Shown here piece after piece: positions 34,357 to 53,190 of a stretch of 64,000 nucleotides of DNA; the stretch's first letter is position 1; the number at the start of each line of letters is the position of its first letter. This DNA is from Actinacidiphila acidipaludis. GTDB taxonomy: Bacteria > Actinomycetota > Actinomycetes > Streptomycetales > Streptomycetaceae. The notes beneath the pieces are model-generated. The model was given only the letters and a program-made list of their open reading frames with translations, was not told where the DNA came from and did no database searches. The stretch spans positions 1 to 64,000 of the forward strand of contig NZ_JAINZZ010000007.1 of NCBI RefSeq assembly GCF_019890725.1. Reading direction: 5' to 3'. The position numbers and the translations under genes are program-made.

Positions 34357-34523
34357 ACCGCCCGGCCCGGCCGTCTGCGGACGGCCGGGGCGACGACGAC
34401 GCGGGTGGGGCAGGAGCCGAGCGGCTCCCGCCCCACCCGCGTCCTCGTGCGGTGTGCGTGGCGGTCCGGCGGCGGTCCGGCGGGGACAGTCCCAGGAAAG
34501 GACCGGCCCGGGAGGAGGCCGGG

Positions 34524-47351: not shown

Positions 47352-48227
47352 ATGAACCGACAGAACGTCATCGACGCCCGTGACAAGACGATTTCAGGGC
47401 CGCCGGTACCTGATCCCGCCACGATGACGCGGGAGCGGGCGGCGGCGATGTTCGCCCGGCCGGGCGGGCGCAAGCCCGACCCGGTCGGCAGCTCCGGGGC
47501 TGCCCAACTTCGTCCGGATGGGCAGGACTTCGGGCTCGGCGGGCACGAGCCGCGGCTGGCCGAGCCGCTGCCGGGTGTGCCGGTCTTCGGGGAAGGGCCG
47601 GTCGGCCGGCTGCGTGCGTGGCTCTTCGTGCGGTGCGGGCTGGAGTTCAGAACGGTGCTGGCTCTGGCGGTGGTGCTGCTGGTGGCCCTCGGGCTGGCCG
47701 TCCAGCACTACTGGGCCGGGCGCCCGCATGCCGTGGGGGTCCCGCCTCCGGCCGCGGCGGCGGCCGCCCTTCCGCGGGTGCAGAGCGTCCGCCCGGCCGC
47801 CGCGCCGCCGAAGCTAACGGTCGATGTCGCCGGGAAGGTCGCCCGGCCGGGACTGCGGCAACTGCCCAAGGGGGCACGCGTGGCTGACGCGCTGGCCGCC
47901 GCGGGCGGCCCGCTGCCCGGTGCCGACACCACCGCTCTCAACCTGGCCCGGCCCCTGAGCGACGGCGAACAGATCCTGGTCGGGCTCCCCGCGCCACCCG
48001 CCGCGGCCTCCTCTCCGGGCGACGCGACCGCGACCGCCCCCCTCAGCCTCAACTCCGCCACCCCCGCGCAGCTCGACGCACTCCCGGGCGTGGGCCCGGT
48101 CCTCGCCCAGCACATCATCGACTTCCGCACCCAGCACGGCGGCTTCACCTCCCTCCAGCAGCTCCGCCAGATCCCCGGCATCGGCCCCCGCAAATTCACC
48201 ACCCTCCAGCCCCTGGTCCACCCATGA
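47352..48227 (+). CDS. comEA: ComEA-family DNA-binding protein
   Basis: 291 residues. A cytoplasmic N-terminus of about 95 residues, one membrane helix (FRTVLALAVVLLVALGLAV), a SLBB-like domain (LTVDVAGKVARPGLRQLPKG, VADALAAAGGPLPGAD) and a C-terminal helix-hairpin-helix pair (LNSATPAQLDALPGVGPVLA, LQQLRQIPGIGPRKF) are seen. It would bind DNA on the cell surface and hand it to ComEC. ATG at 47352 is used; it is close to its AGG site, so a later start cannot be excluded. The stop overlaps the comEC ATG (ATGA). Confidence 0.9.
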   Translation: MNRQNVIDARDKTISGPPVPDPATMTRERAAAMFARPGGRKPDPVGSSGAAQLRPDGQDFGLGGHEPRLAEPLPGVPVFGEGPVGRLRAWLFVRCGLEFRTVLALAVVLLVALGLAVQHYWAGRPHAVGVPPPAAAAAALPRVQSVRPAAAPPKLTVDVAGKVARPGLRQLPKGARVADALAAAGGPLPGADTTALNLARPLSDGEQILVGLPAPPAAASSPGDATATAPLSLNSATPAQLDALPGVGPVLAQHIIDFRTQHGGFTSLQQLRQIPGIGPRKFTTLQPLVHP

Positions 48228-51103
48228 ACCGCCCCAAGCCAGCCCGGGTGCGCGATGAGACGGCTGCGGGCGCGGGGACTGGCGCAGGCGGCCGTGGTGG
48301 CGGGTCGGTTCGTCCCCGGGCGGGAGAGCGCGGCCACGCGGTGGCAGCCAAGTCAGCCCGGGTGTTCGGGCAGGGCGCGGGCTATGCAGGGGCCGGGCCC
48401 GTCGGGGGCGCGGGGAACGGCGCGAGAGGCCACGGTGGCGGGTCGGTTCGTCCCCGGGTGGAAGGGGCAGGCGGGGGCGGGCGCGGCCACGCGGAGGCGG
48501 CCAAGTCAGCCCCGGTGTTCGGGCAGGGCGCGGGCCACGCGGTGGAGGTCGAGGCCATTGAAGGCGGGGGGCACGGCAACGACGGCGGGGCAGCCCGTCA
48601 CCGGGCGGAAGGGGCACCAGGGGACGGCGACGGGCATGGGGGCGGCGGTCACGGTGCGGGCCAGGGCGCCTCGCGGGGAGAGCGAGCGGCGGTTCACGCC
48701 GCGGCGGCTTCACCGTTGGGTGCGGCGGAGCCGCGGCAGGAAGGGCCGCCGGACCTGCGGATGGTGGGGCCGGCACTCGCGGCCTGGGGCGCCGCCGCCC
48801 TCGCCCCGGCGGCCGGCGTGGGGTGGACCCTGGCCGCCGTCATCGCCGCGCCGGCCGCCTGCGTGGGCCTCGGCCTGGCCCTCCGCGCACGCCACCGCAG
48901 GGCCCCCCTGGCGATGGCCGCCCTCGCCTGCGCCCTCTGCGCCACCGCCGCGATCGTCACCTCCGCCCTGTCCGCGGCCGACCGCCACCGCGGCCCGATC
49001 CCCGCCCTGGCCAAGGCCCGGGCCACCGCCGAGGTGACCGTGCGGGTGACGGGTGACCCCTTCGTGCCCAAGGCCGCCCTGGCGACCTCGGCCCGCGGCG
49101 CCCCGCCCTTCGTGGTCGTCCCGGCGGTCGCCGAGGAGGTCGCCGGCACCCGGATCCGCACACCGGTCGTGGTGATGGCCGGCGGCTCGGCCGGACCCTG
49201 GCTGCGGCTGATCCCGTCCACCCGGATCACCGTGACGGCTCGGCTCGCCCCGCCGGACGTGCTCCGCGCGCACGGGCCGCCGCGCATCGTCAGCGGGCCC
49301 AGCACGCCGCAGCGCGTCGCCGCCTCGCTGCGCGCCGGGCTGCGCGAGGCCGCCGCGCCGCTGCCCGGGGACGTCCGGGCCCTGCTGCCCGGGCTGGTGG
49401 TGGGGGACACCTCGGGGATCTCGCCGGAGCTGGCCGAGGCGTTCAAGGCCACGGACCTCGCGCATCTCACCGCCGTCTCGGGCGCCAACCTGACCATCGT
49501 GCTGTGCCTGCTGATCGGCCCGCCGGGTGTCGCGATCCGGGCCGAACGGCGTGGCGCGGCGGCCAGACTCGGGCTTCCGCTGCGCTGGACGGCCGGGGTG
49601 GGTGCCGCCCTCACGCTGGCCTTCGTGCTGGTGTGCCGGCCGAGCCCGAGCGTGCTGCGCGCGGCGGTCTGCGGGCTGATCACGTTGCTCGCCATCGGCA
49701 CCGGCCGCCGCCGTTCCCTGCTGCCCGCGCTGGCCACCGCGGTTCTGCTGCTCGTGCTCTACGACCCGGACCTCGCCCGGTCCTACGGCTTCGTCCTGTC
49801 CGTGCTGGCGACCGGTTCGCTGCTGACGCTGGCGCCGCGGTGGACGTCGGCACTGCGGACCCACGGAGTGCCGCCGCGTCCGGCCGCGGCCCTCGGCGCG
49901 GCCGGTGCCGCCCAGGCGGTGTGCGGGCCGGTACTGGTACTGCTCACCAGTCATGTGAGCCTGGTGGCCGTCCCCTGCAACCTGCTCGCCGAGCCGGCGG
50001 TGGGCGCCGCGACCGTCCTCGGGTTCGCCGCGCTCGCCATCCATCCGCTCGCGCCGTCCGCGGCCGTGGCGGTGGCCTGGCTCGCGGGGTGGCCGACCCG
50101 CTGGATCGTCGCGGTCGCCCGGTACGCCGCGGCGCTTCCGGGCGCGGAGATCGCCTGGCCCGAGGGGATGACGGGAGCGGCGCTGCTCGCGGTGGTCACG
50201 GTCGCCGCCGTCTACTGCGGCCGCCCGCTGCTGCGGCGCCCCTGGCTGTGCGCGGCGGGCGCACTCCTGCTGCTGGGTGCCCTGCTGCGCCCGGTTCCGC
50301 TGCCCGGGCAGGTCGCCGCGTGGCCGCCGGCCGACTGGCGGTTCGCGATGTGCGACGTGGGACAGGGCGACGCGCTGGCGCTGGCCGCGGGCCCGGGCAG
50401 CGCGGTCGTCGTCGACACCGGCCCCGACCCGGCACTGGCCGACCGGTGCCTGCGCGCGCTGCGGGTCACCACGATCCCGCTGCTGATCCTCACGCACTTC
50501 CACGCCGACCACGTCGACGGCCTGCCCGGGGTGCTGCGCGGGCGGCGGGTCGGCGCGATCGAGACGAGCATGCTGGACGCCCCCGCCGGGCAGGCCGCCC
50601 GGGTGCGCCGGGAGGCGGCCGCCGCGCATGTGCGGGAGGTCCGGGCGGAGGCGGGGGAGGAGCAGCGCCTCGGTCCGCTGGAGTGGCGGGTGCTGTGGCC
50701 GCCGCCCGTGGCCGCGGACCTGCCGGACGACAACCCGAACGACGCCAGCGTGGCCCTGCTGGTGCGCACCGCCGGACTGACGCTGCTGCTCATGGGCGAC
50801 CTGGAGCCGTCCGCGCAGGAGGAGCTGCTGACGGAGACGCCGGACCTGCCGCGGGTCGACGTGCTGAAGGTCGCGCACCACGGGTCGGCGTACCAGGATC
50901 CGGCGCTGTTCACCCGGGTGCGGCCGCGGCTGGCGCTGATCTCGGTCGGCGCGGGCAATCCCTACGGCCATCCGAGCGTCCGCACGGTCACCGTGCTGCG
51001 GGCCCTCGGCGCGGTGGTGCTGCGCACGGACACCGACGGGCCGGTGGCGGTGAGCGGTGACGGCCCGGCGGACCTGCGAGTCGTCACGGGAAGGGGTAGC
51101 TGA
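48224..51103 (+). CDS. comEC: ComEC/Rec2 competence-type DNA channel protein
   Basis: 959 residues. The first 175 are Gly/Arg/Ala-rich and repetitive and may not all be translated. Membrane helices begin near 180 (VGPALAAWGAAALAPAAGVG). The DUF4131 and Competence domains follow: LPGLVVGDTSGISPELAEAF, then LTAVSGANLTIVLCLL. A C-terminal metallo-beta-lactamase domain (about 705-955) has DVGQGDALAL, THFHADHVDGLPGVL and VAHHGSAYQD. It forms the channel and nuclease-like part of DNA uptake. The ATG overlaps comEA's stop. A start near 48760 would give a more normal N-terminus. Confidence 0.9.
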   Translation: MNRPKPARVRDETAAGAGTGAGGRGGGSVRPRAGERGHAVAAKSARVFGQGAGYAGAGPVGGAGNGARGHGGGSVRPRVEGAGGGGRGHAEAAKSAPVFGQGAGHAVEVEAIEGGGHGNDGGAARHRAEGAPGDGDGHGGGGHGAGQGASRGERAAVHAAAASPLGAAEPRQEGPPDLRMVGPALAAWGAAALAPAAGVGWTLAAVIAAPAACVGLGLALRARHRRAPLAMAALACALCATAAIVTSALSAADRHRGPIPALAKARATAEVTVRVTGDPFVPKAALATSARGAPPFVVVPAVAEEVAGTRIRTPVVVMAGGSAGPWLRLIPSTRITVTARLAPPDVLRAHGPPRIVSGPSTPQRVAASLRAGLREAAAPLPGDVRALLPGLVVGDTSGISPELAEAFKATDLAHLTAVSGANLTIVLCLLIGPPGVAIRAERRGAAARLGLPLRWTAGVGAALTLAFVLVCRPSPSVLRAAVCGLITLLAIGTGRRRSLLPALATAVLLLVLYDPDLARSYGFVLSVLATGSLLTLAPRWTSALRTHGVPPRPAAALGAAGAAQAVCGPVLVLLTSHVSLVAVPCNLLAEPAVGAATVLGFAALAIHPLAPSAAVAVAWLAGWPTRWIVAVARYAAALPGAEIAWPEGMTGAALLAVVTVAAVYCGRPLLRRPWLCAAGALLLLGALLRPVPLPGQVAAWPPADWRFAMCDVGQGDALALAAGPGSAVVVDTGPDPALADRCLRALRVTTIPLLILTHFHADHVDGLPGVLRGRRVGAIETSMLDAPAGQAARVRREAAAAHVREVRAEAGEEQRLGPLEWRVLWPPPVAADLPDDNPNDASVALLVRTAGLTLLLMGDLEPSAQEELLTETPDLPRVDVLKVAHHGSAYQDPALFTRVRPRLALISVGAGNPYGHPSVRTVTVLRALGAVVLRTDTDGPVAVSGDGPADLRVVTGRGS
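48291..48545 (+). repeat. Imperfect duplication in the 5' end of comEC
   Basis: GTGGCGGGTCGGTTCGTCCC recurs 138 bp downstream, and CGGCCACGCGG and GTGTTCGGGCAGGGCGCGGG recur about 150 bp downstream. The translated copies share GGGSVRPR, AAKSA and VFGQGAG words. Confidence 0.85.
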
Positions 51104-51115
51104 CAGCCTGAAGAT

Positions 51116-51169
51116 CAAGGCTTCTTTCTAAAGAAATGCTTGTAAGCACTTCTTTAGAAAGATACCTTG
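51116..51169. promoter_or_regulatory. 54-bp palindromic operator before the ArsR-like gene
   Basis: Left arm 51116-51135 and right arm 51150-51169 match in 18 of 20 positions (each contains TTCTAAAGAA or TTCTTTAGAA). The centre adds a TGCTT/AAGCA stem. The element is strikingly AT-rich against its surroundings and ends at the start codon. It is a strong candidate for autoregulation by the gene it precedes. Confidence 0.85.
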
Positions 51170-51790
51170 ATGAGCATGGCGGAGAAAAAGCAGAGCCGGT
51201 CCAAGGTCGAGCTCACCGATCCCCGGGCGCTGCGCGCCTACGCCCACCCCACCCGGATGACGCTGGCCGGGCTGCTGCGCCGCGAAGGCCCGCTCACCGC
51301 GACCCGCGCCGCCGAACTCACCGGCGAATCGGTCGCGAGCTGCTCGTACCACCTGCGGATCCTGGCCAAGTACGGGCTGGTGGAGGAGGACGACCCGGGC
51401 GGCCCGGGGCGCGAGAAGCCGTGGCGGGCCACCGCCGAGTACACGGGCTGGCCCGGCTACTCCGAGGACCCGGCCGTCGCCGAGGCCGCCAACGCGCTGA
51501 CGCTCGCCGTCGCCGAGAACCACTTCCACCGCATGACCCGCGCGCTGGAGGCGCGCCGGGAGCTGCCCCCGGAGTGGCAGGAGGCGGAGCGGTTCACCGA
51601 CGTCACGCTCTATCTCACCCCGCAGGAACTCACCGAGCTGGGGGAGCGGATCGACGCCCTGGTGGCCCGGTACGCCGACCGCGGGAGCGACCCGTCGCTG
51701 CGGCCGGAGGGGGCCCGCCGCGTGCCCTACCTGCAGATCGCGTACGTCGCCCCCGAACCCGAACCGCCCGCCCGGGAGGAGGAGCCGTGA
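51170..51790 (+). CDS. ArsR-like winged-helix transcriptional regulator
   Basis: 206 residues. Winged helix at about 18-90: DPRALRAYAHPTRMTLAGLL, LTATRAAELTGESVASCSYH and LRILAKYGLVEEDDPG, a DNA-recognition pattern like ArsR family repressors. No metal-binding CxC is present. The C-terminal half (about 90-206) has VTLYLTPQELTELGERIDAL, found in the HTH_20 group. ATG at 51170 is used; TTG 51167 and ATG 51176 are alternatives, and none has a strong Shine-Dalgarno. The TGA overlaps the MFS start (TGATG), so the pair is one unit. Confidence 0.9.
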   Translation: MSMAEKKQSRSKVELTDPRALRAYAHPTRMTLAGLLRREGPLTATRAAELTGESVASCSYHLRILAKYGLVEEDDPGGPGREKPWRATAEYTGWPGYSEDPAVAEAANALTLAVAENHFHRMTRALEARRELPPEWQEAERFTDVTLYLTPQELTELGERIDALVARYADRGSDPSLRPEGARRVPYLQIAYVAPEPEPPAREEEP

Positions 51791-53190
51791 TGAGCGCCGC
51801 CACCGCTGTACGGGGCCTCGGCCGCCGGGTTCCGGCGCTGCTGCACGACCGGCCGTTCCGCCGCTACTGGACCGGGCAGACCGTCTCGTTCCTGGGTGAC
51901 GAGATCACCTTCCTCGCCCTCCCGCTGGCCGCCGTGCTCGTCCTCCACGCCGACCCCGCCCAGATGGGCTGGCTGTCGATGGCCGGGCTGCTGCCCGCGC
52001 TGCTCTTCTCGATGGCGGCCGGAGCCTGGGCGGACCGCCGGGGGCGGCGGCGCGCGGTGATGATCGCCGCGGACCTCGGCCGGGCGGCGCTGATGGTCTC
52101 GGTCCCGGTCGCGTACGCGCTCGGCGTGCTCGGGCTGCCGCAGCTCTACGTGGTGGCCTTCGCGGTGGGCGTGCTGGCCGTGGTCTTCGACGTCTGCAAC
52201 GCCACGCTGTTCGTGTCGCTGGTGAAACCCGAGCAGTACGTCGAGGGGAACGCGCTGGGCAACGGCAGCAGGGCGTTCTCGTTCGTGGCCGGGCCGAGCG
52301 CCGGCGGGCTGCTCGTCCAGGTGCTCGCCGCGCCCCTGGCGCTGCTCGCCGACGCCGTGTCCTACCTGGTCTCGGCGGTCACCCTGAGCCGGATCGCGCC
52401 CGACGAGCCGCCCCCGGCCACCCCGGTCAAGGGCCACTTCTCCGCCGGGCTCCGCTTCATCTTCCGCAGCCCCGTGCTGCGGGCCCTGGTGACGTCCGCG
52501 GCCACGGTGAACTTCTTCAACTTCATCTTCCACACCCTGGTCGTCCTCTACGCCGTCGACCGGCTCGGGCTGAGCGCCGGCACGCTGGGCGTGGTGGTCG
52601 GCGCGGGAGCGGTCGGCGGTCTGGCGGGCGCCGTGCTGACCGGCCGGATCGTGCGCCGGGTCGGCATCGGGCCGACGATCGTCCTCGGCTGCGTCGGCTT
52701 CCCCGCGCCGCTGATGCTGGTGCCGCTGGCCGGCGGGCCCGAGCCCGCCGTGCTGGCGCTGCTGTTCACCTCGGAGTTCCTGTCCGGGATCGGCCTGATG
52801 CTGCTCGACATCGGCAGCGGCTCACTCCAGGCCGCGGTCATACCTGACGCGTTGCGGTCGCGGGTCTCGGGCGCGTTCCGCACGGTCAACTACGGCATGC
52901 GCCCGCTCGGCGCGCTGGTCGGCGGCCTGCTGGGCAGCACCCTCGGCGTGCGGCCGACGCTGTGGATCGCCACGGCGGGCGGCGTGCTCTGCGTGCTGTG
53001 GCTGCTCCCGTCCCCGGTGCCGGGGTTGCGCGAGCTGCCCGAGAAGGCCGTCCTGGCCGACGCCGGCCCGGACTCCGTCACCACCCCGGCCGCAGACTCC
53101 GCCGGGGCCGGGGCCGGGGCCGGGGCCGGGGCCGGGGCCGGGGCACCGCGGGCAGCCGAGGCGTCCCGGGCGGAGGCGACGCGGCGGTAG
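51790..53190 (+). CDS. MFS transporter (MFS_3 / macrolide-efflux-like)
   Basis: 466 residues with 12 predicted helices. The N-terminus FRRYWTGQTVSFLGDEITFL and AGAWADRRGRRRAVMIAADL are typical of the MFS_3 (MefA-like) group. NGSRAFSFVAGPSAGGLLVQ is also conserved. It probably exports a small molecule sensed by the coupled ArsR-like regulator. The C-terminal 35 residues contain an Ala-Gly dipeptide run encoded by a GGGGCC repeat. ATG at 51790 overlaps the preceding stop with GGAGGAGG about 8 nt upstream. Confidence 0.9.
   Translation: MSAATAVRGLGRRVPALLHDRPFRRYWTGQTVSFLGDEITFLALPLAAVLVLHADPAQMGWLSMAGLLPALLFSMAAGAWADRRGRRRAVMIAADLGRAALMVSVPVAYALGVLGLPQLYVVAFAVGVLAVVFDVCNATLFVSLVKPEQYVEGNALGNGSRAFSFVAGPSAGGLLVQVLAAPLALLADAVSYLVSAVTLSRIAPDEPPPATPVKGHFSAGLRFIFRSPVLRALVTSAATVNFFNFIFHTLVVLYAVDRLGLSAGTLGVVVGAGAVGGLAGAVLTGRIVRRVGIGPTIVLGCVGFPAPLMLVPLAGGPEPAVLALLFTSEFLSGIGLMLLDIGSGSLQAAVIPDALRSRVSGAFRTVNYGMRPLGALVGGLLGSTLGVRPTLWIATAGGVLCVLWLLPSPVPGLRELPEKAVLADAGPDSVTTPAADSAGAGAGAGAGAGAGAPRAAEASRAEATRR
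53104..53144 (+). repeat. GGGGCC hexanucleotide microsatellite
   Basis: Six perfect GGGGCC copies and a partial seventh encode an (Ala-Gly)n tail in the MFS transporter. Confidence 0.97.

Follow-up and report, generated by a model that had tools for sequence, protein, structure and literature searches.

A 14-bp tandem dyad array on a predicted leaderless promoter before an HTH_20 regulator and MFS transporter operon of Actinacidiphila acidipaludis

The window, a 64-kb stretch (64,000 nucleotides) of Actinacidiphila acidipaludis DNA, carries a ComEC-like gene followed by an operon for an HTH_20 regulator and an MFS transporter (Table 1). An imperfect inverted repeat begins 10 nt past the comEC stop (51103), before the operon. 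The G+C content of its array is 33%, against 73% in the window. The MFS gene stands next to the regulator in 45/46 loci (L003-L048) and in all 30 loci of an overlapping set (L060-L089). At more distant loci, relatives of this transporter were found in one of eight (L049-L059; three more gave no match at the threshold), 18 in 40 (L097-L136) and nine in 58 covered by short stretches (L137-L196); the pump partnership is therefore firm for orthologues only. A plasmid search with the MFS gene stretch returned 45 records, each with a DNA identity of 60-80%. The transporter contains an MFS_1 domain (131.8 bits, cut-off 33.4), while its score for the H+ antiporter subfamily TIGR00900 (182.2 bits) stays under the cut-off of 319.6. 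Of the MFS pump in the initial annotation, the family has been confirmed and drug pumping is putative only. Translation of the pump is predicted to be coupled to that of the regulator, because the stop and start codons overlap. An Ala-Gly tail is encoded within the terminal 3′ part of the transporter gene (53104-53145), where GGGGCC occurs six times unaltered and once more with a single change.

Table 1. Features of the regulator-transporter locus (positions in the window)
Feature	Position	Strand	Basis or remark
ComEC-like upstream neighbour, Competence and beta-lactamase-like domains	48224..51103	+	same strand in 41/46 orthologue loci
Entire imperfect inverted repeat, candidate tandem array of 14-bp operator units flanked by outer half-sites	51114..51171	.	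28-nt arms (51114-51141 and 51144-51171), 89% complementary, 2-nt gap
Outer half-site ATCAAG, upstream end	51114..51119	.	sequence
Candidate operator unit 1, CTTTCTAAAG	51124..51133	.	phase of orthologue position -39 (33/65)
Candidate operator unit 2, GCTTGTAAGC, contains the -35	51138..51147	.	orthologue position -25 (59/65 at >=7/8; the window's own unit scores 6)
Predicted -35 hexamer TTGTAA	51140..51145	+	TTGTAA in 59/65 orthologues, 17 bp before the -10
Candidate operator unit 3, CTTTAGAAAG, within the promoter spacer	51152..51161	.	orthologue position -11 (62/65)
Predicted -10 hexamer TACCTT, TANNNT type	51163..51168	+	TANNNT in 64/65 orthologues
Outer half-site CTTGAT, its CTT forming the second half of the -10	51166..51171	.	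CTT here in 60/65 orthologues
HTH_20 (ArsR-like) regulator, 204 aa	51176..51790	+	predicted leaderless start ATG 51176, stop 51788-51790
MFS transporter	51790..53190	+	start overlapping the regulator stop (TGATG), GGGAGGAGGAG before it

The repeat forms 25 of 28 possible pairs. Its inner 20-nt arms (51116-51135 and 51150-51169) are complementary at 18 of 20 positions, in full agreement with the first annotation, and the symmetry extends beyond them to the 28-nt arms. The same number of 25/28 pairs is reached at one other place in the window, a G+C-rich inverted repeat (34390-34450, centre 34420) with the appearance of an ordinary terminator-type hairpin. From 57 and 30 loci, 76 distinct upstream stretches were obtained. 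Those from proteins with at least 50% identity, 65 in number, are called orthologues here. They were aligned on the -10 hexamer, taken as TANNNT followed by ATG or GTG within 5-9 nt and chosen by the -35 match; three of the 65 were anchored by hand.

In the orthologues, the recurring unit is a dyad of the type CTTT-NN-AAAG, repeated head-to-tail with a 14-bp period and in phase with the promoter. Units matching at least seven of eight positions lie at -11 (62), -25 (59), -39 (33), -53 (8), -67 (3) and -81 (2) relative to the -10 of the 65 orthologues; only three were off-phase, singly at -37, -51 and -64. With the threshold lowered to 6/8, contiguous units number one in two orthologues, two in 26, three in 26, four in eight, five in one and six in two. 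The array of the window has three full units besides its outer half-sites. The strongest short dyad axes are found at +1, -6, -13 and -20, in steps of 7 bp. With ties shared, a spacing of 14 was the best in 50.1 of 71 close, 23.8 of 46 distant and 20.5 of 60 freshly drawn relatives, the next-best spacings in the two latter groups being 13 and 28. Strong pairs at spacing 14 occurred in 69/71, 24/46 and 15/60 sequences, respectively, against no more than 0.015 sequences for any one spacing after shuffling. Comparison of sequences shows the array, its phase, the promoter geometry, the co-occurrence with the regulator and, at the thresholds used, a single genomic site. It also supports the initial assignment of an operator-like element to the ArsR-like regulator and MFS operon. 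A literature search of openly licensed articles, by titles and abstract openings, yielded no description of such an array, weak evidence of its being undescribed.

The promoter call rests on conservation, and a simple sigma-70 scan gave no promoter at the array. The distance from the -10 to the start codon is 6 nt in 40 and 7 nt in 24 of the 65 orthologues, the codon being ATG in 62 and GTG in two. A leaderless geometry (TANNNT -10, 5′ UTR below 9 nt) was found in 64/65 orthologues, a count partly built in through the anchoring rule, which itself allowed 5-9 nt; the phases of the upstream units are not built in. In a study of Streptomyces coelicolor, the -10 consensus is TANNNT, and 5′ leaders shorter than 9 nt are given for 21.0% of primary starts (PMC4895711). 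The closing triplet of the -10 is CTT more often than TANNNT requires (Table 1), as expected if the -10 doubles as a half-site. The regulator mRNA is predicted to be leaderless and to begin at ATG 51176 instead of ATG 51170, on account of the promoter geometry, which amends the first codon to be read. The element had been described as abutting the start codon; ATG 51170 does overlap the edge of the repeat, but the geometry favors the later ATG as the start. In one orthologue (L004), ACG replaces the leaderless start codon, and a GTG is located further on, behind a ribosome-binding-like GGGAGG.

With the centre counted as a pair, the symmetry of the window amounts to 24/28. The array is the most symmetric among the 65 orthologues, the other 64 of which reach 4-20 pairs. 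Composition-preserving shuffles of the 65 stretches (3,250 in total) averaged 7.2 pairs and reached 16 at most, and 5,000 chimeras of orthologue blocks had a maximum of 22 pairs. As the window surpasses all orthologues and chimeras, part of its perfection is particular to its own species, perhaps by chance. This symmetry, together with an RNA fold of -32.2 kcal/mol (z -6.2), is what commends a single large palindromic operator, occupied by two cooperating dimers, whose RNA hairpin would also block translation of the regulator. Neither property is conserved, however. The pairs vary as given above, and the fold has a median z of -0.9 in the other 64 orthologues, falling below -3 in five and below -2 in ten. 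A conserved translational hairpin was rejected on this basis. Since the predicted mRNA is leaderless, beginning at or next to ATG 51176, the hairpin would lie upstream of the RNA start and could form only in transcripts begun further upstream, e.g. by read-through from comEC. The translational block of the initial annotation is therefore unsupported, and the single palindrome with its hairpin is very improbable as a whole. The presence of more than one dyad is supported by comparison, but the organization follows 14-bp tandem units over the -35 and -10 and not two arms. The 54-bp palindrome largely results from the stacking of symmetric units.

Read-through RNA bears on another explanation, a terminator or processing hairpin that ends the comEC message and is unrelated to the regulator. 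The repeat starts close behind the comEC stop, it would form a strong hairpin in such RNA, and one weak terminator-like match was located at 51105-51122. The stem is A/T-rich, though, the full hairpin lacks a T run, and the number of units varies between orthologues. Moreover, the array is kept with the regulator in seven orthologues (57-60% identity) in which no comEC was detected within 500 bp upstream. The comEC terminator was rejected on these grounds, and this function is regarded as highly improbable.

The pattern TTTCTTTAGAAA, allowing one mismatch, matched the 8.48-Mb genome twice, both times in the element (control 0). A two-unit pattern with up to three mismatches gave five matches, four of them in the element (two with two mismatches, two with three); the reversed control gave four, so only the two-mismatch matches, both in the element, stand out. 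The one match elsewhere (G000:C116:92339, corresponding to L094 1500-1525), AGATACCTTCATGAAGGTAT, precedes a TetR-type gene. Its neighbor gene is taken to be AfsA-like from the translation, and AGATACCTTCATGAAGGTAT presumably resembles a butyrolactone-receptor site, not a unit pair. Of the 43 matches to a related pattern in 35 genus genomes, 40 directly precede the regulator gene and three lie elsewhere; the reversed control also had three. The site is present in 23 of the 24 genus genomes with an orthologue (E <1e-79); the one missed (G039) harbors a more diverged array (L073). Among the 11 genomes without an orthologue, two showed a stray three-mismatch match. A regulon search had been suggested with the first annotation. 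As carried out here, it revealed no second such site in the 8.48-Mb genome at the thresholds used, and a wider regulon was rejected, matches elsewhere in the genome and genus being at control level.

The array might also be bound by another regulator, or serve as an activator site for its own. The genome does encode same-family regulators (L090 and L091). Within the genus, however, the site is found at the regulator gene and follows its orthologue, and three relatives from Arthrobacter (39-41% identity) share the recognition-helix core SVASCSYHLR and keep the same operator class. The units overlap the -35, the spacer and the -10, an arrangement suiting exclusion of the polymerase. Both variants are accordingly judged very improbable.

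The regulator matches Pfam HTH_20 (PF12840; 43.4 bits, cut-off 27), and its designation as ArsR-like is right at the level of the fold. An AlphaFold2 model from 39 sequences (pLDDT 91.4) has a winged helix, in which residues 53-55 open helix 53-65, and an extra C-terminal domain. The winged-helix fold of the model matches CadC, CzrA and SmtB at VIA Z 10.2-11.0, CadC (3f72) with Z 11.0 over 77 residues (rmsd 2.3). CadC, SmtB, CzrA and NmtR are encoded in self-controlled regulator-exporter operons with the operator over the promoter, and the locus described here, with its putative exporter and candidate operator, resembles them in its layout. It differs by the length of the regulator (204 aa with the C-terminal domain), the single cysteine and the MFS exporter. 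The Cys-rich metal-binding motif of ArsR/SmtB proteins, of the ELCVCD type, is not present in the DNA-recognition region; the only cysteine is at position 56. The score for ArsR/SmtB metalloregulators (NF033788) is 36.3 bits, under the cut-off of 55. Both results argue against metal sensing, and sensing through cysteine pairs was rejected. Among the matches listed, no solved structure other than Kfla_6221 from Kribbella flavida (PDB 4g6q) aligns with most of the regulator (profile E 0.0012 over residues 12-163; Foldseek E 9.5e-6; VIA 174 residues, Z 10.6, rmsd 4.9). The two share about 18-20% identity, and the structure is titled as functionally unknown.

The operators also differ. ArsR/SmtB operators consist of one or two 12-2-12 sites, in contrast to several 14-bp units here, and a distance of 6 or 8 bp between half-site centres has no obvious fit to a classical ArsR dimer. 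Variable numbers of short units bound by neighboring dimers are known from MetJ (8-bp met boxes) and the pSM19035 omega repressor (heptad repeats). The array may share this working principle, although MetJ and omega have a ribbon-helix-helix fold and the period here is 14 bp.

Taken together, the element very probably represents the autoregulatory operator of the regulator-MFS operon, an array of 14-bp dyads on a leaderless promoter from which dimers exclude the polymerase until a ligand releases them. This model is built on sequence comparison. The CTTT and AAAG half-sites of the 14-bp units alternate, placing a dyad axis every 7 bp, and the predicted -35, spacer and -10 each contain half-sites. 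Winged-helix dimers would bind neighboring units, possibly cooperatively, each recognizing either CTTT-NN-AAAG or AAAG-N4-CTTT as its dyad. Because 14 bp correspond to 4/3 of a turn at 10.5 bp per turn, successive dimers would be placed about 120° apart, every third one on the same face, and three units would span about four helical turns. From the positions of the half-sites, bound dimers would be expected to exclude RNA polymerase, i.e. to repress rather than activate. A ligand of the C-terminal domain, probably a substrate of the pump, would release them and so allow joint production of the regulator and its translationally coupled pump.

A wider sample of the family comprised 40 more distant loci and 60 fresh loci from a phylum-wide draw. 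The latter represent 60 of 68 match rows, three rows being already present in earlier sets and five left out; some of the genomes are shared with the genus search, the DNA of these loci being new to the analysis. Many distant relatives keep the spacing of about 14 bp with a changed central dinucleotide. It contains A/T in the class of the window and is CG or GC elsewhere, in step with residues 53-55, which open the recognition helix. A helix-operator rule with Gly (to GC), Asn and Ala-Ser clauses was fixed before the fresh sample was drawn. In the training loci, it matched 73/76 of the A/T class, 12/16 of the Asn class and 16/18 of the Gly class, the rest being uncallable apart from two off-register; seven further loci outside the rule were uncallable. 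The 36 fresh loci under the Gly clause comprised 23 with GC, 12 uncallable and one off-register, i.e. 23 of 24 callable. Four fresh loci belonged to the Asn class, three uncallable and one a tie read as A/T type, which was counted against the clause. The Ala-Ser clause failed in the single callable fresh locus to which it applied (L140), which has CG. Another 19 fresh loci outside the rule included four with CG and 15 uncallable. In total, 30 of the 60 fresh relatives had no callable unit pair or array. Of the rule, only the Gly clause held in the fresh sample.

A tree of 114 rows (relatives of at least 50% identity thinned to every sixth, short-match rows dropped) requires five changes of operator class. 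The link between helix and operator amounts to one independent contrast on well-supported branches and three on all. L136, which lies outside the main GC clade, has a GC core together with a Gly helix. The second family member in the same genome, L091, has a GC-type array with 13-14 bp spacing and a GTG 6 nt after TACGCT. L090, another paralogue in this genome, is preceded by an ordinary inverted repeat in place of an array, which is therefore not universal. In the relatives L104 and L105, the recognition helix has HLG where HLR is otherwise present, and the upstream units are of the CTTGATTAAG type; the flanking half-site seems to be changed in them as well.

A stacked-dimer leaderless architecture with a 14-bp step might be shared by a large actinobacterial branch of HTH_20 regulators, a tentative proposal with somewhat less than even chances. 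Repression would then evolve through the number of units (1-6), as on a dial, and the recognition helix would, by its first residues, select which central dinucleotide is bound (A/T-containing, CG or GC), so that paralogues within one genome do not cross-talk. If the pairing of helix and operator holds, Streptomyces engineering could gain sets of repressors that may not interfere with one another. Naturally occurring promoters with one to six units allow a direct test of how unit number affects repression and cooperativity. What appeared as a one-off curiosity turns out to be an architecture that is conserved and countable in Streptomycetaceae and has relatives in Arthrobacter, Microbacterium and Bifidobacterium.
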